64,000 nt of DNA, taken from Aldrovandia affinis (Eukaryota > Chordata > Actinopteri > Notacanthiformes > Halosauridae). The position numbers were made by a program, and so were the translations under genes. The stretch spans positions 62,001 through 126,000 of the forward strand of contig JAINUG010000070.1 of NCBI GenBank assembly GCA_029706075.1, in the 5' to 3' direction. A model generated the notes under the pieces. It searched no databases. It saw nothing but the letters and a program-made list of their open reading frames with translations, and was not told the DNA's origin. Below are positions 12,455 through 63,812 of the stretch, piece by piece. Every line of letters starts with the position of its first letter. Within the stretch, counting starts at the first letter, position 1.

Positions 12455-15400
12455 TTGTGACAGATGGATATACACAGTACAACAATGTCAGCTTTGTTAT
12501 TTTGTTTGTTATACAAATTGTTGTTTGTACAGGCAGTCCCCGGGTTACGAACGAGATCCGTTCTTATGTCTGTCTTTAAGTCGAATTTGTATGTAAGTCG
12601 GAACAGGTACATACAGTTCTTATTAATCATCACTTAGTCAAATGTTTGTCTTAGTATAGTATTTATTTTACCTTTCTGTGCATATAAAACACTTTTACAA
12701 TAAAACATCTTACACATAACATTCAGTACATAATAATACTATAATAATAATAATAATAATAATACTGTAATATTAATAATACAGTAATAATAAAAGTAAC
12801 TATGTACATACAGTACTCTACTGTAAAACAAAACATTTAAGAAAGGCTTCGAGCCTTTTCTTGCACTAAAGAAAGGCTAATAGGCATATTACGCTGATTT
12901 TGGTCTTCTATCCTATCAATAGCCTTTCCATCCCAATAATTAAACCACTGCGTTGCTTGGTAATAATCGTGGCATTTATCAGGGTATGGCCTTTCACATG
13001 CTCCATTATTCTCCCTTTGTCGTTTAAAATTGTTCCGATCGTTGACCGGCTGTAGCCTAATGCTTTCCCAATGGCTGATGGCGTTTCACCTCTCTCACTT
13101 TACTTTCCATGGTGATTGTTTTCCTTTTCTTTGATGCATCACCAGCACTTGCATCGGATTTACGCCTTTGGAGGCATCGTTGTAAGGGTAAGAGAAAGAG
13201 AAAAACGCGACCGTGATCTGACTTAAAATAATGGACGGTGATTTCTGTTCCTTGAGCCGATGAACCGCTGAAACCGCGCAATGTTTTCATGAGCATCACA
13301 AAGTAGTGCGCTCGTTCGTTATTACAAACCATTGTATTTAACTACATTTTTTAAACATAATAGGCCTTATGGCAGTCCATTCGTAAGTACGAGTAAGCCG
13401 GACGTTCGTAACCCGGGGACTGCCTGTATAGTATCTAGCTATAATTGACCACAGATTGGAATGTTGTTTTAGAATGTAAAGTACTATTGTCCAAAAATAA
13501 TAATTAGGTTGTTTTTTATCTGTTATAAAGTGTCTTGCACCTGAATATATTCAAATAAAGATGTATACCTGCAATATTAACATCCTTCTATATTAATTAC
13601 AATTGTATAGTGCTTTTATTTTATTTTCCCTGAAGTAAAGGTTCAAATCGGCAACAGGGCTGCCAGATCAGATTGACAATTTCCAGCCCAACCACAGCTT
13701 AAAACCAGCCCAATTCAATAAAAAGCAGTACACTTGGTCCTGTGCTCTTTAAACGCTCCCATCTCTTCTAATATATGTCTTCCACTGCATTAATGGAAGT
13801 GTGGCAGGCAATGTACATTTAATTTTTTTTTGTTGCAATGTAGAGTTCACAACATTTGGTCATCTTTTATTGTGCCTTGCCCTGTCCCAGCTGCCATCGG
13901 TACAGCAAAGGTTTTGACCCTAGGCACGCAGCGGGACTTGTGCTTATTTGTGGTGGCATGGTCTTTCAGATCATTAAGTTGCACCCTGATCTCTGTGTTG
14001 CAATACTTGGAGCGGGCCTTTGAGCAATCTTCTGGGACAGGGACGATCCAAGTTTTTAGCTCAGGATCGGTCTCCCATTCTTTTCAGTACAGTTTCTTAT
14101 ATTTCCCCCACTTTGGCATGTTAATAATCCTAGCTGCTAGATAGTCTTGCTCACCACCAAATTCTGAACGCATGGCTGCTAGCTAACTAACGTCTCCTCC
14201 AGCTTCTTCAGGTTAACATTCTAGTAATCGTTAAACACTACAACCAACCACATTATGATGAAGTCAATGTAGGTAGCCCCTCCCTTATCTCTACTATGAT
14301 TAAATACAATTCATGTCAATAAAATATTTTTCTCAAATGAAATGAATGAGTAGCATAATATAAGTGGACCGAAAGACTAATAGGCTACCTATCAAATTTT
14401 GTGTCTGTGTGTTTTTGATCATAAATGACACAGCGTGTTTGGTAATATTGTTTTAATAATATTTTCAAAAACCCGCCAAAATGTTGACAAAAGCAGCCCA
14501 TATTTTATCTACCAGCCCAAGACTATTCCCAACGGAAAACCACACAATCTGGCAACACTGATCGGCGAGCTAGGATCTTAGCTAAGAGCTTAGCATCCAC
14601 GTTTATTCGAGAAATAGGTCTAAATGCAGAAGGAGCTTCAGGGTCCTTGTCCTTTTTAAGGATCAAGCAGATATTAGCTAATTACATTGTGTCGGGAAAA
14701 CAATGTATACTTTCAAAGCCGTAATTTCTCTTTAAAAGCCTTATACCACTCAGCCGGGAAGCCATCTGGGTCAGGAGACTTCCCACTTTTCATCAAGGTA
14801 ATTGCTTCTAAACTTTCTTCCTCCCCGAGCAAATTTTGTTGTTTATTTATTTATTTGACAGGGACAGTGTACATTGATAATATTTCTGTAAATGTGCTAG
14901 AGTTAGGGAAGGAGGCTAATTTTCATCTGTAGTCCCAGGGCAGGCTGCTAGTTAAAAATCAACAAATACAATTGTTGCGTCAGTGTAGGTAAATTAATTC
15001 TAGAAAAAATACTCAAGCTTCTTTGTATTGCATGTCCTATGTATATAAGGTTTTATAAAATTAAGTAAAAACTGAGTTAATGCCCCCATTATCAAAAAAT
15101 ATTTTCCCCATTAGTGTCTTTGATGGTTGCAATTGTGTGTCGGTTGATTAGCTGTGTGAAATACTGCTGGATTTATTGCTAAATTCATAAAGTCGTTGTT
15201 ACTGATAGAAGAGGGCTCTGGATGCTTTGTCACTCATGAGAGAATTAAGTGCTGCCCTAATAGCCTGAGGCCAGGTCCACACTAATCCGGATAAATTTGA
15301 AAACAGTTTTCATGTCAAAATGTTTTCCCGTCCACACTACCGTTTTCGAAAAGTTTGTCATCCACACTGAAACGCCAAAAGCGCTTAAATTACTTTAATG

Positions 15401-18400
15401 GGCATGCGCAGGAAACCTGAGACAGCAACAGAGCAGGTTTATGCCATAAATGCAAAATATATTCTTATGTTTGTTTCTCATACCAGTGTTTATTTGTGGA
15501 CTGGAGTTTAAGGTTATTCATGTTTGCAATGAGTACAATTTGAACAATCCTTTGTGTGAAAATGTATTGAGCTAAAATACATCACAACATAATGACAGAT
15601 GTTAACCTTTCACCAGTTTCATTCTACATCCACGTGTTATTCTTGTTAAACAACAGTTTGTCAAAAATTGTCCTAGGAAGAAAATGTAAAAAGTGAATAT
15701 TAGAAGGTCTTGTCTTTTTTCCCCAACGTTCTGTATTTGTGGACTTGACTTTGTCGTCAATCAAGTTCAAAAAGAACACTACCTCTTTAACATAACTATA
15801 CTACACAATTCTTACTATTCACTTCGTCACTATTGAGTGTTTCCGCTATTTCCTTCCACAAATTAATTGCCATCTGGTTGTCTTTGTGAGTCATATAAAT
15901 GCCTGTACTTTTTGACCTCTTCGCACACTGAAGCTCTCCAGTTTTTCTAAAAGGCAGTTAAAGGGTGAACTAGATAACGGAAAACCCGTGGCCGAGGACG
16001 CATAGTTAGAAAATGTAACTAGGGCGCGCGCCCAAGGAAGGCCAAACTGAGAAAAAATTTTTTTCAAACGTATCTGATTTAGTGTGGACCTGGCCTGAGC
16101 CTTCATAAGATTAGCCTTTGTAGGGTTGTTTTCATGCACATTATCTGCAGTGTGTAGCTAGCTCCTGTTGTTTTAATGACAATAGGGTTTTTTTATAGAT
16201 GTATAGAATATGACAGATCCCTTCAAAAAGGCTTTACCTGTCTGCCACAATAACTCTGAGGTTGTTTCTCCTTCATCATTTGTTTCAAAGAAAAGTATTA
16301 TATCTGCATCCATTTTCTCTTGAAATGCTTTGTCACCCACAAGATAAGAGGGGAATCTCCACCTTTGCGGCCTAACACCTAGCTCAGTGAGTCTCACATC
16401 TGTGTAAACTGGACTATGGTTCGAAATATGTATAGACCCTATCGTACGTGTTTATCAAACCCACCACCTGTGGTGGAACAAAAAGGTAATCGATCCCGGA
16501 GTACGACTTATGTGGATGTGAATAAAAAGTGCTTAGCTGTGGGATACATGTTTCTCCACACATCTACCAGATTATTAAAATTATTAGAAATTATTAAAAA
16601 GAGAAGCATATTGGATTTTTACTTTGAATTCTATGGAACCACATGGCCTTAATGAAACATTAGATTTAAGTTCTTTTTTGTTATAATGGTTCTAATGTAT
16701 GGCTCTTCTTCCTACAGACAACCTGATTTAAGGAGAGGAAAGACAGGTGCACTACCTCCCCTGCTCACTACCCTCCCTCCCCCGCCTGATGTAGGGATAT
16801 GCAGTCGAGTAGGCCTACTCCATGAGTTGCTGTATATTGTCTTATAATGTATATCAAAAAAAAATTGTTTTGTGAACTTATTTTTTGTAATACTGCTGTC
16901 TTACTCATCATTGATGATTGTAAACATGTATTGTTCTCCTGATGTCAGAATATCAATGACTTTTTGTAAATTGTATAATACTATGTGATTCAGCTGGTGC
17001 TTGGCTGATTGGACCACACCCACAGCCTATTTAAAACACCTGTGCAGTGCTTCAGAACGAACCTGAAGAAGCCTTTTGTGAAACGCGTTGTTCGTTTTTA
17101 GCTTAATAAAGTATAAGTAATTTTTTCAGCCTTGTGTCGCGGTGAATCTTGTATTTTTATCTACGTTTTTCCTGCCATCACCTGCACCAAGGACTGACAG
17201 AGCTGTGCACAGGGCATCCACTTGCTTTTGAGTTTACCTATACGGGGAATTTGTCAGGAATTTCCCCAGCCCTTTGTTTTGCACGCCCGACTATCGACAT
17301 GAGTAAGTCTACCTTAGAGACTGGTGCGCGAAAACAGTATCAAACGCAATGTCTATCAATTAGTGATTCCGAAGCAGAGACTATTATTGAACAACAATCA
17401 CTATTTGATGGTCTAGAGAGGAATGCTCTCAGTACTACAACGAGAGAGCTAAAGACAACACTCAATGACCTGATGAAAAAAGAGATGCGTTTAAAATGGC
17501 ACAGTATAGCACTATCGGAATATTGGCGCACCAAACAAATTCCCCGTGGTCTTAGAATAAACAAACGACCTACCTTAGGGAACAATGATCCCATGTTTCT
17601 GAAAAAATGGGAACAGGTACTAAATAAGTGCTCATTGGACTTGACGTTACTCATTGTTGAACAAACGAAACAAGAAGCTACACAGGTACATATTGGAAGT
17701 CATGAAAACTAAAGAACTTTTAAAAAATCAGATTGAGACTGGTGAGTTGACAACACTGGAAAACTAACTAAAAGAAGAACTGATCAAGTTTGAAAAGGAG
17801 CTTAAGGCTTATAAAATAAAGAAGTTTGAAAGAGACGCAGAGGATTACAAGAATGATACTGTCTATAACTGGAAAGAGACGGCCCATGATCGAACCGAGG
17901 GAAGGAGAGACAACTGGAGGAGAGACCGATGGAGACGAAATGAACGCCATCCCAACGTGCTGAGGGGTGAGGAGGAAATGAGTGACCAGGGGCATACCAG
18001 CGAGTCCTCCATGGACGACCATTTTTTAGGTGGACTTCAGAGACCACCACCACATCCACCACACAGAGGAAGAAGAGGACGAGGCGGGGGAAGAGACCTC
18101 AGCTACCGCAGCCTCCAGAGGATAACCACACGCAGCATGAACAAGTGGTAATTAACATCTCTGACCACACATTAACCTTAGACCAAGAAAAAGGACTGAA
18201 CAAAGGACTAAGTTATGTTCCCACTAATAAGGTTAATGCATTTCAGTTGAAAGTTGATTGTTATAAGTTTTTTAGACAATTACACTTAAAGCACTTCTTT
18301 CGTAACTCTACTCAGTCAGTTACGGGTATTGATCATTTTAAAAAGAAATCTACATTTGTTCCCCCTGGGGCTCCTAATCCGACATTGGCTACCTTCAGTA

Positions 18401-21400
18401 AAGTTGTTGAAAGAGACATTGACGCATTGGTGAAATCCAAGCAGACTCCAAGAAATTATAATATCAGCATGGCAGAAAGAAAAGCTTTAAAGGAATTACA
18501 GTCCGACCCTAAAATTATAATAAAACCAGCTGATAAGGGAGGATCTATAGTTGTCATGAACACCATTGATTATGTTAATGAGGCCAAGAGACAACTAGGC
18601 AATACTGCTTTCTACCAGTCATTGCGTAGTACCCCTACTGATAAGTTTGAAAAGGAAAGGGACGGGATCCTAGATAATGCTTTGAGAAAGAACTGGATCT
18701 CTCAAAAGCAGTTTGATTTCCTGAGAAATGAGTTTCCTACGACGCCAGTACTATATCTGCTACCTAAGATTCACAAGACTCTGAATAACCCTCCGGGTAG
18801 ACCCATTATTTCCAGCAATGGCTCCCTATTGGAACCCTTGAGTCAATTTGTTGATTTCTATATAAAAGACATAGCTAAGAAATTTCCGTCGTATGTGGCA
18901 GATACTCGGGATGTCTTAAGACAGCTGGCAGACATAACTTTACCCAAAGAGTCTCTATTGGTAACATTTGATGTTGAAAGCTTGTACACAAACATCCCTC
19001 ATGAGGGCGGCATTGAGGCCATACATCATTTTCTCGGACCTATGGAACAGGCTCCGGTAGATTTCCTTATGATTCTCACCAAATTCATATTGGAATCCAA
19101 CTATTTTATGTTTGATAACAAGTTTTACCTACAGACTGAAGGGACATCTATGGGCTCGCCTTTTGCACCCAATTATGCTAATTTATTTATGGGGTTATGG
19201 GAAGAAAACTTCATTTTCAATCAGAGAAATCCATTCAGAGACAGTATCCTGTTTTTAAAAGATACATTGACGATATCCTGGTGGTGTTTACGGGTCCTGA
19301 AGAAGCACTATTTGTTTTCAGAGACTATATCAACAACACGTATCCTTCCCTAAGATTCACTATGGAATATAATAAAGACAAAATACATTTCTTAGATTTG
19401 CTCATTTCTGCTAACAAAGATGGTACATTAGACACTTCCATCTTTCGTAAGGAAACGGACAGAAACACCATTTTACATGCGCAAAGTCACCATCCAAAAT
19501 CCATGGTAGAAAATATCCCTTATGGGCAATTTCTCAGATTAAAGCGCATATGCAATAAAGAAATAGACTTTGAACAGGAAGCCATAGAGATGGGAGAAAG
19601 ATTAGCAAAAAGAGGTTATAGGAAGGAAACCACTGATAAAGCATATAATAGAGCTAAGAGTAAGGATAGACAACTTTTATTGACACCGAGACCCCAGGAA
19701 CAAAAAGAAAATCCCATGAGGCCTACATTTGTTTCTGAATATAGCCATGTATCCAATGAAGTAAAACATATTGTCAGAAAGCACTGGAATATTTTAAGCT
19801 GTGATCCAAATTTAACAGAAGTGGCTAGATCCACCCCTAGGTTCTGTTTTAAGAGAGGCAGAAACATTAGAGACACCGTGGTTTCTTCCATGTATAGAGC
19901 GCCCATCCCATCCACCAATTGGTTGACCCAGGAGGTATATGGTAACTATAGATGTGGAAGGTGCACGCATTGTTCTCACACACACGACACTAAGATCTTC
20001 CATCATCCTCAGACAGGGGAAAAATATAAAATCAAGGAGTTCATAAACTGTCTGTCTACACATGTGAGAGGAAAGACAGGTGCACTCCCCCCCCCCTGCT
20101 CACTACCCTCCCTCCCCCGCCTGATGTAGGGATATGCAGTCGAGTAGGCCTACTCCATGAGTTGCTGTATATTGTCTTATAATGTATATCAAAAAAAAAT
20201 TGTTTTGTGAACTTATTTTTTGTAATACTGCTGTCTTACTCATCATTGATGATTGTAAACATGTATTGTTCTCCTGATGTCAGAATATCAATGACTTTTT
20301 GTAAATTGTAAAATACTATGTGATTCAGCTGGTGCTTGGCTGATTGGACCACACCCACAGCCTATTTAAAACACCTGTGCAGTGCTTCAGAACGAACCTG
20401 AAGAAGCCTTTTGTGAAACGCGTTGTTCGTTTTTAGCTTAATAAAGTATAAGTAATTTTTTCAGCCTTGTGTCGCGGTGAATCTTGTATTTTTATCGAGG
20501 TTATATTAATGTTGTATAATGCCTTTGTCAGACCTCACTTAGAATACTGTGTGCAGTTCTGGGCACCGCACTACAAGAAAGATATAGAAGCTCTTGAAAA
20601 AGTTCAAAGAAGGGCAACTAAACTGATACCTGGTATGAAAGGTCAAAGTTATCATGATAGACTTAAGGCACTCAATCTATTTAAGCTTAGCAAACGGAGA
20701 CTTAGGGGGGATTTGATTGAGGTTTTTAAATTCCTAAAAGGGATTAAGAAAGTAAAATACCAAATATTTTTAAAGATAAGTGGTGTCAGCAGAACAAGGA
20801 AAGTGGAAGGCAGGTGGAAATTAGTTAAAGGCAAATTCCACACAGATATTAGGAAGTTTTTCTTTACACAGAGAGTTGTCAATGCCTGAAACAGCTTGCC
20901 AGGTCGGGTAGTAGAGGCAGAAACACTTGGGCTATTCAAGTCCAGGTTAGATGCAGTACTAGATACTCTTTAGATTAGGACATAATGAGCCTAGATGGGC
21001 TGAATGGTCCGTTCTCATCATTATGTATTCTTATGTTCTTAGGTTATTTTTTTCCATTCCCACGGTAAAAATCCTAAAAGATGTGAACTCAGCCTCCAGC
21101 CTTGACTTCTCCCATTTTTCCGTGCGCTCTGCATGACGAGCTGCATGTCAGCAAAGTTGACCATAGCCAATTTGAGAGGCATTCAGGTTTGCTATCACGC
21201 CTTCGCTTATCCTTATGATTAAGGATGCCTTGGTCGGAAACCATCTTGCAAGCTCAACCAGCTAAAGTCTTCATTTTGAGTTTCTCCAATTTCGGCCTTA
21301 AAGTCCTTTTAGTACTCAGCGAAGTAGACCATAAGTCACACAGTGACATACCACATTTACCAATTTTTTGACCCCAACCACAAAAATTACATTCTCAAAT

Positions 21401-23769: not shown

Positions 23770-23895
23770 ATATATGCCATTTAGCAGAATCTTTTATCCA
23801 AAGCGACTTGCAGTTATGAATGCATACATTTTTCAGTATTCCCAATGGGAATCGAACCCACAAGCGCCATGCTCTACCTACTGAGCCACACAGAC
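23770..23895 (-). repeat. tRNA-related short repeat with GCGACTTG core
   Basis: TTTAGCAGAATCTTTTATCC and AAAGCGACTTGCA, then GGGAATCGAACCC (an inverted B box) and GCCATGCTCTACC. This conserved fish repeat also occurs at 34943, 45840 and 63168. Confidence 0.65.
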
Positions 23896-44600: not shown

Positions 44601-47600
44601 AAATGCTAAAACATTGCAGCTGTCTTTTTAATAGCATATAGATTTGTATGAAAATGTGATGAGTAGTTTAAATAGTCTCGGTCCTTTGCCAAAATAAAAT
44701 GTCCTCCCTTGTGGAAGCGGTGATTTTCATACTTTGAATGTAAACGCTGTGCGACCATTATTTTGCGCAGTGTAAATTTAACCCATAATGTGAATAGAGG
44801 TGGTTCGGCACAATTATGTGTGGAGGGGAAGGACAACATAAGTGTAAGTAAGGCTCTGAAGTTCATGTGTTTAAATTGAACTGGAGGCTGTCATGCTGAA
44901 TGGGGGTTATGACATTGTTGGGATTACTGAAACATGGCTTGGGGCAGCGGATGGGGATGAATATAATGTGGAGGGGTACAAATTGTTTAGGAAGGATAGA
45001 ACTAATAAAAGAGGAGGGGGAGTGGCCCTTTATGTGAAAGACAATCTTAATGTGTAGGAAATTCCAAGTATTAACTCATTCATTCCTTGAGGACATCTGG
45101 ATTAGATTACGGGGAGATCATGAGAAGGGCCTTAATATAGGAGTATGCTATAGATCTCCAGCTTCAGACAGTAACATAAATACTATGCTCCTTGGTAACA
45201 TAAAACAAGCCTGTGCTGAAGGAGAGACGTTAATAATGGGCGACTTCAATTGCCCCTCTATTAATTGGGAAGTATTAATCAGGTCAGGGTAAATGTGAAG
45301 AAGAGTTTTTGGACATGGTCAATGACTGCTTTTTGGACAGTCTGTTACTCAGCCTACAAGAGGGAAATCAATACTGGATCTGGTTTTGTGTAATAATCCT
45401 TACAAAATATGCAGCACAGAGGTGGTAGAACCACTAAGTGATCACAGTGCAGTTACTTTTGATATTTTTTGGCAAGTTAAGACAGCCTCCTCCAACTACA
45501 GAATGTTTTACTTCAGACGAGCTGACTTTAATAAAATGAGAGAGAATTTAATTAATATAGATTGGGTAAAACTTCTAGATTGCAGAACTGTGAATGAAAA
45601 ATTGACTACATTTAAAAAGGTTATTGTAGATGAGTGTAAATTCATCAAAAAGGAAGGAAAAATAGGATGAAAGGAAGGAAGTCTCCGCAGTGGATGACTA
45701 AATCTTTACGGGAGGTTTTGAGGCAAAAGAAGCAACTGTTCATAGTATATAAAAAGGATAACTCAAAGAGAAACAAGTTCGATTATTGTAATATGCAGGC
45801 TTATGTCAGTTTAACTTTCAGCTAAACTGTTCTTGACTACGGTTAACACTTTGTTGTACGTCGCTCTGGATAAGAGCGTCTGCCAAATGCCTGTAATGTA
45901 ATGTAATGTAATTACATCGCATGTAAAATACTGGAATGTATTATTAGGGAGAAGTTTGGATCGTTCTTGAAAAATAACAACATGGTTTTCTCAAAGGGAG
46001 GTCATGCCTAACAAACCTCCTGGACTTTTTTGAAGAGGCTACAAAGTGTGTTAACCTGAACCAGGCTTATCATATATATATGATATTATATATTTGGACT
46101 TTAAAAAAGCATTTGACAAGGTACCACATGAGAGGTTCATTGTTAAAATGATTTCAATAGGAATTGCAGGAGTTGTTTCAGAGTGGGTTCATAATTGGCT
46201 GCAAGGGCGAATACAAAGAGTAACAGTAGGTGGGGCCAGGTGCTGTGGGCAGTGGAGTCCCGCAGGGATCGGTGCTGGGACCTCTGCTCTTCCTTATTTA
46301 CATAAATGATCTTCATAGGGACGTTAGTAGGAAAATAGTTAAATTTGCAGATGATACTAAACTTGGGGGTTTGGCAAACAGTTTGGAATCGACTAAAGTA
46401 ATCCAAGACAATTTAAACAAAATCCAAGAATGGGCAGAAATGTGGCAGATGACATTCAATATTTCAAAATGTAAAGTTATGCATGTGGGAAATAAAAACA
46501 TAAGACAGGAGGATTTTATGGGAGGAGAAAAATTAGTATGTGATCAATCAGAAAAAGACTACAAAAGAATTGTAGTTGATCAAAGCCTATCTGCATCAAA
46601 GCAGTGTGCTACAGCAATGAAAAAAGCCAACAGGATCCTGGGATACATAGCAAAAAGTATTGAGTATAAATCGAAGGAGGTTATATTAATATTATATAAT
46701 GCCTTTGTGCAGTTCTGGGTACCGCACTATAAGAAACATATAGAAGATCTTCTATATTCGAAGTTCAAAGAAGGGCAACTAAATTGATACCGGGTATGAA
46801 AGGTAAAAGTTATGAGGATAGACTTAAGGCACTGAATCTATTTAAGCTTAGCAAACAGAGACTTAGTGGGGACTTGATTGAGGTTTTTTAATTCCTAAAA
46901 GGGATTACAAAGTGAACTACCAAATATTTTTTTAGATAAGTGGGGTCAGCAGAACAAGAAGCCACAGGTGGAAGTTAGCTAAAGGCAAATTCCGCACAGA
47001 TATTAGGAAGTTTGTCTTTACACAGAGAGTTGTCGATGCCTGGAACAGCTTGCCAGGTCGGGTAGTAGAGGCAGAAACACTTGGGCTATCCAAGTCTAGG
47101 CTAGATACAGTAGTAGATACTCTTTAGATTAGGACATGATGAACCTACATGGGCTGAACGGCCAGTTCTCATCATTATGTATTTTTTGTTATCACGGAGC
47201 AATTAAAAGGATTTAAAAGATGCAGGACCATATATAGCTGGTCTCCATCTGCACCTGGTAGTTGGACCTTCCTGATGTTAAATATAGCTACGCTATGCTG
47301 GCTAGCTGACCTCGCATAGAAATGACAGTGTTTAAGCTATAGATCAATTTGTGAATAAGCACAGATTACAGCGGGTAGTCAGTGGACGGCCTGTTCCCTG
47401 TTTCGGAAACAACTACAACGGACTGTGAGAAGACCTTGATGTGGGTCTGGACTTGCACCCTGGCTGCCCGGTGAGACTTTGTAACTTACGCTTGGGCATT
47501 TGTTAAAACATTAGATGTTATTCGAGAATTTTTTTTAAAAGTTTTTGTTTCAATAAACAATAGTTGATTCCTTTTTTATACGACTGCATGCTTTATGTTT

Positions 47601-63164: not shown

Positions 63165-63232
63165 ACCAATTACATTACATTACATTACATTACAGGCATT
63201 TAGCAGACGCTCTTATCCAGAGCGACTTAGTT
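63165..63232 (-). repeat. (TTACA)n plus GCTCTTATCCAGAGCGACTT repeat
   Basis: Six or so TTACA units, then GGCATTTAGCAGACGC and GCTCTTATCCAGAGCGACTT. Inverted relative to the copy at 45840. Confidence 0.8.
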
Positions 63233-63812
63233 TACATTTCTTTACAATCCATGTATACAGCTGGATATTAACTGAAGCAATAACCTGGTCTTGGTTTTGA
63301 GATGTATAAGTAGCTTGTGAAATTCAAATTGTCGCCCCTTACTTGTAGGTGTACTTATGACAGAAATGTGTATCACTCAATAATGGCAGTTATTTGAATT
63401 GTGAAGGGGTTGATTCTATCAAGATTGATGGTGATGCAAAATGCTGGATATCTCATGTTTGCCAATTAGCCCCGGTCTTCATTCTCACCAACTCTTTTTT
63501 GTACAGAATTTCCCAAGTGACCAAAACCCGAATTGATCATAATCACAATCTGTTGAGAAGAGTGAGTAGATGGTAGATGATGTGACACACAACTTATTGG
63601 CTGTCAGTGGCACGATGTGTTATTAAACAAACGTTGGAAATGATGACTTTCAGATGTCTGGACAGTTAGAATACTAACATTACCACCCTCACTTTAAGAA
63701 CAGCTGCATATGTGCCAGTGAGGATAAAATATTTTGAAGGACATTACCGAATTAAAAACACATCCAAAAACATTTACAAGACTGTGGGATGGCTGAATTC
63801 TGACGACAGTGA

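Follow-up and report, generated by a model that had tools for sequence, protein, structure and literature searches.

The Penelope-like element and its hammerhead motifs

The window, i.e., the whole stretch of 64,000 nucleotides analyzed here, contains a copy of a Penelope-like element (PLE), in which a broken coding region lies between two pseudo-LTRs and both pseudo-LTRs carry the same hammerhead motif without any change (Table 1). The element shows the features of this group, namely a PLE-type reverse transcriptase, pseudo-LTRs, tandem or inverted copies, and an optional tail, and its seven best protein relatives (the first named ones belong to two fishes, Coilia grayii and Engraulis encrasicolus) are 57–62% identical. 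The 5′ repeat had been placed at 16733–17161 in the first-pass annotation, which was too short: its left part reaches 16586 (16586–16761 matches the element at locus L029), and the copies extend to either ~17157–17164 or 17223–17242; the tail ends at ~17242.

The GIY-YIG endonuclease is absent from the window copy, while it is found at the matching place of the same open reading frame in L029. The translated L029 stretch matched PF01541 (GIY-YIG; E 4.2e-4) with 21 bits, slightly short of the curated threshold (22.6), and PF01541 is annotated in some of the protein relatives (e.g., P0007 and P0009). The window copy itself is defective, with the endonuclease gone and the frames broken.

Table 1. 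Coordinates in the window of the PLE copy, its hammerhead, and the clusters of insertion ends mapped onto it.
Feature	Position	Strand	Basis or remark
5′ pseudo-LTR, cut off inside the endonuclease end at 16586; optional tail ~17162–17242	16586–17242	+	match to L029; copies
TATA-like box TATTTAAAA	17028–17036	+	direct reading; ~30 nt upstream of an insertion 5′-end cluster
Two more stem I pairs in read-through RNA	17054–17055	+	9 pairs in total, including G.U
Stem I, 5′ strand AACGAAC	17056–17062	+	direct reading and scanner
Putative transcript start region	17057–17064	+	18/62 insertion-arm 5′ ends
Core CUGAAGA (C3 to A9, N7 = A)	17063–17069	+	direct reading and scanner
Ten-base segment AGCCTTTTGT	17070–17079	+	direct reading
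Probable extra A between A9 and stem II	17070	+	found unforced in the L046–L048 pattern; pairing register test
Probable stem-loop II: G17071.U17079, C17072-G17078, loop CUUUU	17071–17079	+	register from relatives
Core GAA (G12 A13 A14)	17080–17082	+	direct reading
Palindromic, loop-less stem III ACGCGU (A15.1 to U16.1)	17083–17088	+	reading, scanner, cofold
Single T (U17089; H17 position)	17089	+	direct reading
Predicted cleavage point, U17089/G17090	17089–17090	+	15/62 insertion-arm 5′ ends at these bases
Stem I, 3′ strand GUUCGUU (DNA GTTCGTT)	17090–17096	+	direct reading and scanner
AATAAA, polyadenylation-signal-like	17105–17110	+	direct reading
First 3′-end cluster, putative reverse-transcription start site 1	17156–17168	+	insertion ends
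Second 3′-end cluster, putative reverse-transcription start site 2, end of tail	17223–17242	+	insertion ends
Broken PLE coding region in several frames, with reverse transcriptase domain	17299–20067	+	PF00078, E 3.3e-7, in 17986–19350
3′ pseudo-LTR	20066–20496	+	98.8% identical to the 5′ copy (16733–17161)
Site missing ~366 nt with the GIY-YIG endonuclease	20067–20068	+	stretch present in L029
Second hammerhead, identical	20391–20431	+	same 41 bases in the 3′ pseudo-LTR

The 41 bases at 17056–17096, read directly, form a minimal type I hammerhead within the PLE pseudo-LTR. All coordinates of the type I order and of the perfect 7-bp stem I proposed in the first-pass annotation agree with this reading, and the palindromic ACGCGT that it had assigned to stem III is in place. 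The motif has the core, the A15.1–U16.1 pair, an H17 position that is not G, and the 7-bp stem I of the minimal PLE form of type I, as well as a short palindromic stem III (ACGCGU) that is able to pair between two copies, a second copy being needed for all of it to pair. The exact core and stem I, the position in the element, the motifs in three of four other PLE loci, and the 217 matches in the genome (see below) support the reading as a type I hammerhead of a PLE; the earlier observation itself is confirmed. Both the ribozyme and the element are of an already known kind; minimal type I hammerheads are described in PLE pseudo-LTRs in the available portions of earlier papers (PMC6155905; PMC7761336).

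A strict type I scanner (CTGANGA, GAA, an A..T stem III of at least three pairs, H17 not G, and stem I of at least 5 bp) found two places only on both strands of the window (17063 and 20398) and gave no match on 100 dinucleotide shuffles. Looser core patterns occurred in the window at chance level (4 vs. 4.2 expected, and 5 vs. 3.4 expected).

Related motifs and the register of stem II

With a looser pattern, hammerhead-like motifs were found in three (L046, L047, and L048) of the four other PLE loci, and none was found by it in L045. These four loci are PLE-bearing contigs in bacterial assemblies and are apparently eukaryotic (host) contamination; PLE relatives were also sought among viral contigs, and none was confirmed. 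The strict scanner passes over the three motifs because their stem III, a loop-less palindrome (ACGT in L046 and L047, AGCT in L048), has two pairs only. By eye, L046 has a strong stem I, L047 one of 4 bp, and L048 one of only 2 bp followed by a mismatch. The Rfam hammerhead models gave no match at the window motif, and none up to E 1 at the motifs of L046, L047, and L048; because the same library misses these motifs, we do not count its silence at the window as evidence.

The first-pass annotation had described stem II as pairing badly and perhaps unusual. This was partly an error of register, stem II having been read one base too early, and partly correct, in that the stem is truly short, with only 2 bp after an extra A. 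This register is backed by the relatives and not by variation within the family. One extra A, which the search pattern did not require, comes after the core in L046, L047, and L048, and stem II then pairs as GACCC/GGGTC, GCC/GGT, and GACC/GGTC, respectively. A minimal PLE-type hammerhead pattern matched the whole source genome at 217 places, with many different stem II sequences, as against 9 in the reversed control. Because this pattern forces the extra A, it is no proof of that base; the register is nevertheless tested by it. Among 77 distinct motifs in the 100 matches listed, stem II had at least three bases paired in 48 when read after the extra A and in 1 when read before it, and shuffling of the stem II halves (2000 times) gave 27.3 ± 2.6 paired motifs, 36 at the highest. 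Covariation of stem II across the 217-match set of this genome is thus supported by the 77 distinct motifs among the matches listed. The hammerhead of chrysanthemum chlorotic mottle viroid has longer stems. Its plus-strand ribozyme resembles the window motif in the extra A at the same place, between A9 and G10.1, with which it is active, according to the available part of the source (PMC3705267).

Folding and conservation among copies

The minimum-free-energy fold of 53 nt is not a hammerhead and is no better than those of shuffles (z 0.42). Stem I had pairing probabilities of ~0.2 to 0.96 in five of six folded contexts and of 0.001 in the sixth (the leader 17057–17400). Two strands folded together reached −19.7 kcal/mol vs. 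−4.1 for the single strand, a value that is a cofold energy and not that of a defined dimeric hammerhead. Dimer-dependent cleavage through the palindromic stem III is a plausible hypothesis. We also considered a regulatory hairpin, CTTCAG (17050–17055) with CTGAAG (17063–17068), that would block the ribozyme in read-through RNA; its probability was ~0.33 in two shorter read-through contexts, and it was dropped, since the 346-nt read-through context favors stem I (~0.95 vs. at most 0.03 for the hairpin).

Loss of stem I in other copies had been named in the first-pass annotation as a point against its proposal; of the 46 family copies holding the motif, 36 have neither strand of stem I altered. 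The core (17063–17069 and 17080–17082) has one change among these 46 copies, which we do not use as proof because bases nearby are almost equally constant. Among the copies of the family there is too little variation for covariation to show.

Insertion 5′ ends in the source genome

Insertion of the element proceeds by reverse transcription, so a copy's 5′ end marks either the 5′ end of the RNA template or a stop of copying. The 1.2-Gb source genome was searched with a seed from 17100–17125 (at most two mismatches), which gave 105 matches (0 in the reversed control), of which 100 were listed and read; a second seed (17122–17151) gave 94 matches, every one of them listed (control 0), and added a few loci. 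We measured 110 arms in 77 sources and kept 105, after removal of four duplicate arms (two in L053, which equals L050, and those of L066 and L080, which equal L065) and of one with an internal deletion in the hammerhead (L083). Three ends were set by eye (both arms of L057 and the plus arm of L016). Among the matches listed, 62 arms from 45 loci ended within 17040–17125 and were counted. An end at 16993, shared by 20 arms, was not counted, as the same preceding bases recur there, which points to a subfamily indel.

The 62 ends were distributed as follows: 1 at 17040–17056, 18 at 17057–17064, 5 at 17065–17086, 21 at 17087–17091, 13 at 17092–17100, and 4 at 17101–17125, the last being all that the further-downstream seed contributes in that bin. 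The four bases 17088–17091 hold 19 of the 62 ends vs. 2.9 expected (binomial p 3e-11), 10 of them exactly at 17090, and are the fullest 4-nt window, tied with 17087–17090. When one arm per locus was taken, a mean of 12 of 45 fell at 17088–17091 (p about 7e-7); ends occur there in 15 of the 45 loci and at 17057–17064 in 16. The bond 17089|17090 had been predicted before the insertion ends were examined. The 13 ends at 17092–17100, just past the cut, could be pauses or trimming.

Target-site duplications of 10–15 bp flank L049, L050, L051, L059, L061, L062, L085, and L086 and mark them as true insertions; all of them have an end in the cut-site cluster. In several other insertions a duplication cannot be told because they are sited in (TA)n tracts, in which many insertions of the family (L009–L044 and L049–L089) sit. 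The two arms of L050 are joined exactly at 17090 (AACGAAC|GTTCGTT), while the joint has one extra T in L052 and a short filler in L059; in L085, an 11-base filler lies between the target-site duplication and G17090. Single-arm insertions occur in both clusters, with L031 at the start (13-bp duplication) and L061 and L085 at the cut.

The other major cluster, at 17057–17064, lies ~30 nt downstream of the TATA-like box, which is the usual spacing for a TATA-driven start. Comparable boxes were seen by eye 33–38 nt upstream of CTGA in L047, L106 (family A), and family T; inspection of L046 and L048 showed no clear one. The start cluster recurs in family T, where 15 of 49 arms have their 5′ ends −36 to −33 from the predicted cut, i.e., where the 5′ strand of its stem I begins. 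The ribozyme thus seems to open the RNA in both families, and transcripts of the window family apparently start at ~17057, as judged from the insertion ends and the TATA-like box.

Family T has no cut-site cluster: its 49 arms include single ends at −1 and −3 and two at +2, one of the latter being an internal deletion. This set, from 50 matches, is unfiltered for internal deletions, and 6 of the 49 arms simply run to where the reference ends. The hammerhead of family T has ACGT as stem III and a shorter stem I than the window family. Either its ribozyme is weaker, or the peak of the window family has another cause; the result also suggests that pausing at a hammerhead is not by itself enough to produce such a peak.

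Two-arm insertions and 3′ ends

Arms in both orientations were measured in 30 loci, in 29 of which one arm reaches 17223–17245 and the other ends earlier. The shorter arm ends at 17156–17168 in 27 of these 29, and sooner in L014 (17146) and L059 (17128). The long arm of L009 is a longer copy of the element, L041 has a third arm, and the plus arm of L043 continues to 17242 after a gap. Two-arm insertions thus nearly always combine a tailed and an untailed arm. This pairing of long and short arms agrees with what the available portions of two papers describe, namely two reverse-transcription start sites bounding the tail of an Anolis element (PMC11167929) and inverted repeats in rotifer PLEs of which one is tailed (PMC3846280).

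Sixteen head-to-head pairs had both 5′ ends within a class, with the start class taken as 17057–17070 and the cut-region class, a wide one, as 17086–17100. Fifteen were of the same class (4 start–start and 11 cut–cut) and one was mixed (p 0.0015 by shuffling), and in each of the 16 insertions a long 3′ end is paired with a short one. In both L017, the sole mixed case among the 16, and L143, one arm begins at the start site and the other near the cut.

Interpretation and alternatives

We consider it likely that this minimal type I PLE hammerhead stands at the start of the element's RNA, that part of the RNA cleaves itself in vivo, and that both forms are reverse-transcribed. Transcription would start at ~17057, as the insertion ends and the TATA-like box suggest, so that the RNA opens with the ribozyme; a share of this RNA would then cut itself after U17089 and lose its first ~33 nt, stem III probably being formed between two RNA copies. 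The element protein would begin reverse transcription at two internal sites, at ~17160 and ~17236, and copying would run to the 5′ end of the RNA, leaving stub insertions that often have two head-to-head arms, with uncut RNA giving arms from the start site and cut RNA giving arms from the cut site. Full-length copies would require an uncut downstream ribozyme, so cleavage may limit or time full-length copying; since cleavage of the downstream copy would remove the start sites for full-length copying, it would be expected to be restricted or to come late. The insertion ends are new support for cleavage in vivo, not proof of it. Against this reading stand the folds without a preference for the hammerhead, family T without a peak, the RNA reads of the Anolis element (see below), and the 13 ends at 17092–17100.

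The ends at 17088–17091 might instead be points where the reverse transcriptase halts on uncut RNA, at stem I or at the folded hammerhead, with cleavage unneeded. The 13 ends beside the base of stem I would fit such stops, as would the pairing probabilities of stem I given above, high as some are in five of the six contexts. A stop would be expected at the outer edge of stem I (17096–17097), before its 3′ strand is copied, but the peak sits at 17090, with the whole strand copied, at the predicted scissile bond, and family T has a similar hammerhead without such a peak; we think this explanation distinctly improbable. A second transcription start or a host RNase could also make a 5′ end at 17090, as other ends (17057–17064) do seem to mark transcript starts. 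This is very unlikely, however: no TATA-like box was seen by eye ~30 nt upstream of 17090, where the ribozyme core lies, and the match to the predicted bond would be a coincidence. Many of the ends belong to head-to-head pairs, i.e., large palindromes, and self-priming has been proposed for PLEs in the available part of one paper (PMC3846280), which brings up the idea that the joints at 17090 arose by later deletion of the palindromic center or by self-priming of the cDNA through stem I. We give this idea little credence, as single-arm insertions with target-site duplications (L061 and L085) end at the cut site, self-priming via stem I would be expected to keep the hammerhead at the joint, whereas L050, L052, and L059 have none between their arms, and by-eye reasoning found no microhomology at the break points. 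The first-pass annotation had offered a fossil as one option, that is, a hammerhead inherited from an active ancestor and not working in the window family. The 2-bp stem II, the weak predicted fold, and the defective window copy would suit a fossil, yet the peak of insertion ends at the predicted cut argues against it, as does the single core change among 46 copies, a weak test given that neighboring bases are nearly as constant; we hold this option to be very unlikely.

A further idea, which we put forward tentatively and think rather unlikely to be right, is that the ribozyme acts as a template switch in an integration complex of two RNAs, which pair through ACGCGU and are either both cut or both left uncut. 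Arms from the start site would come from uncut pairs and arms from the cut site from cut pairs; a cut in the downstream copy would leave a dead-end stub in place of a full-length insertion. The same class in 15 of the 16 pairs, and the long and short 3′ ends, as if each start site were used once, speak for it, although the symmetry of a palindromic joint, or one RNA copied twice, could look alike.

Relation to known systems

Reportedly, Cervera and de la Pena (in 2014) and Lunse et al. (in 2017) dealt with minimal hammerheads of PLEs, and the title of the latter is said to name dimer cleavage, which the palindromic stem III of the window motif would suit. Going by the descriptions in the available portions of the literature, the window motif is like published PLE hammerheads in the type I order, the minimal or absent stem III, and the two copies in the pseudo-LTRs; set beside them, it has a 6-nt ACGCGU and a 2-bp stem II after an extra A, and its family, unlike those described there, has genomic evidence for in vivo cleavage. 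In the texts that it covered, our literature search found no report of insertion ends at the cut site of a PLE hammerhead or of transcript starts at such a hammerhead; the papers of 2014 and 2017 may contain one.

The Poseidon element of Anolis carolinensis (PAc; Frangieh et al., 2024) is of the same general PLE type and shares with the window family the two reverse-transcription start sites bounding the tail and the ribozyme upstream of them (PMC11167929). In the available sections of that paper, PAc has no RNA reads at the cut site, its cleavage depends on the protein in vitro and is unnecessary for insertion, and the authors suggest that protein binding aids folding of the ribozyme (PMC11167929). 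PAc thus differs from the window family, in which insertion ends mark the cut and a putative transcript start. The hammerheads of the newt satellite and of axolotl retrozymes are also type I with a short stem III and are efficient as dimers, whereas they belong to non-autonomous circular-RNA repeats and not to PLEs, as far as the available text goes (PMC7229834).

Because the promoter of the window family seems to lie just upstream of the ribozyme, only ~33 nt would be removed by cleavage, unlike with the ribozymes of LINEs. The R2 ribozyme has an HDV-like fold. According to the available portion of one source, ribozymes at LINE 5′ ends (L1Tc and R2) are alike in that self-cleavage is thought to set the 5′ end of the retrotransposon RNA, while the L1Tc ribozyme differs in being HDV-like in fold and not a hammerhead (PMC7761336).

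Whether such elements cut their RNA in vivo was previously an open question, to which old insertion ends suggest that the answer is yes. The insertion junctions of one genome appear to record both the transcript start and the ribozyme cut, so that cleavage can be tested by plain genome analysis in other species, and they give exact sites for the mapping of RNA 5′ ends. They also suggest that a PLE promoter can be positioned such that transcription opens with the ribozyme.

Other features of the window

Upstream of the element there is an inverted repeat of 49 nt (15262–15310 and 16054–16102; 82% complementary). A 5′-truncated LINE-like fragment (20497–21040) seems, by eye, to begin right at the 3′ end of the right pseudo-LTR of the PLE. 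Three UnaL2-type LINE 3′ hairpins scored over the Rfam gathering score, at 45843–45896 on the forward strand and at 23771–23824 and 63190–63248 on the reverse strand.
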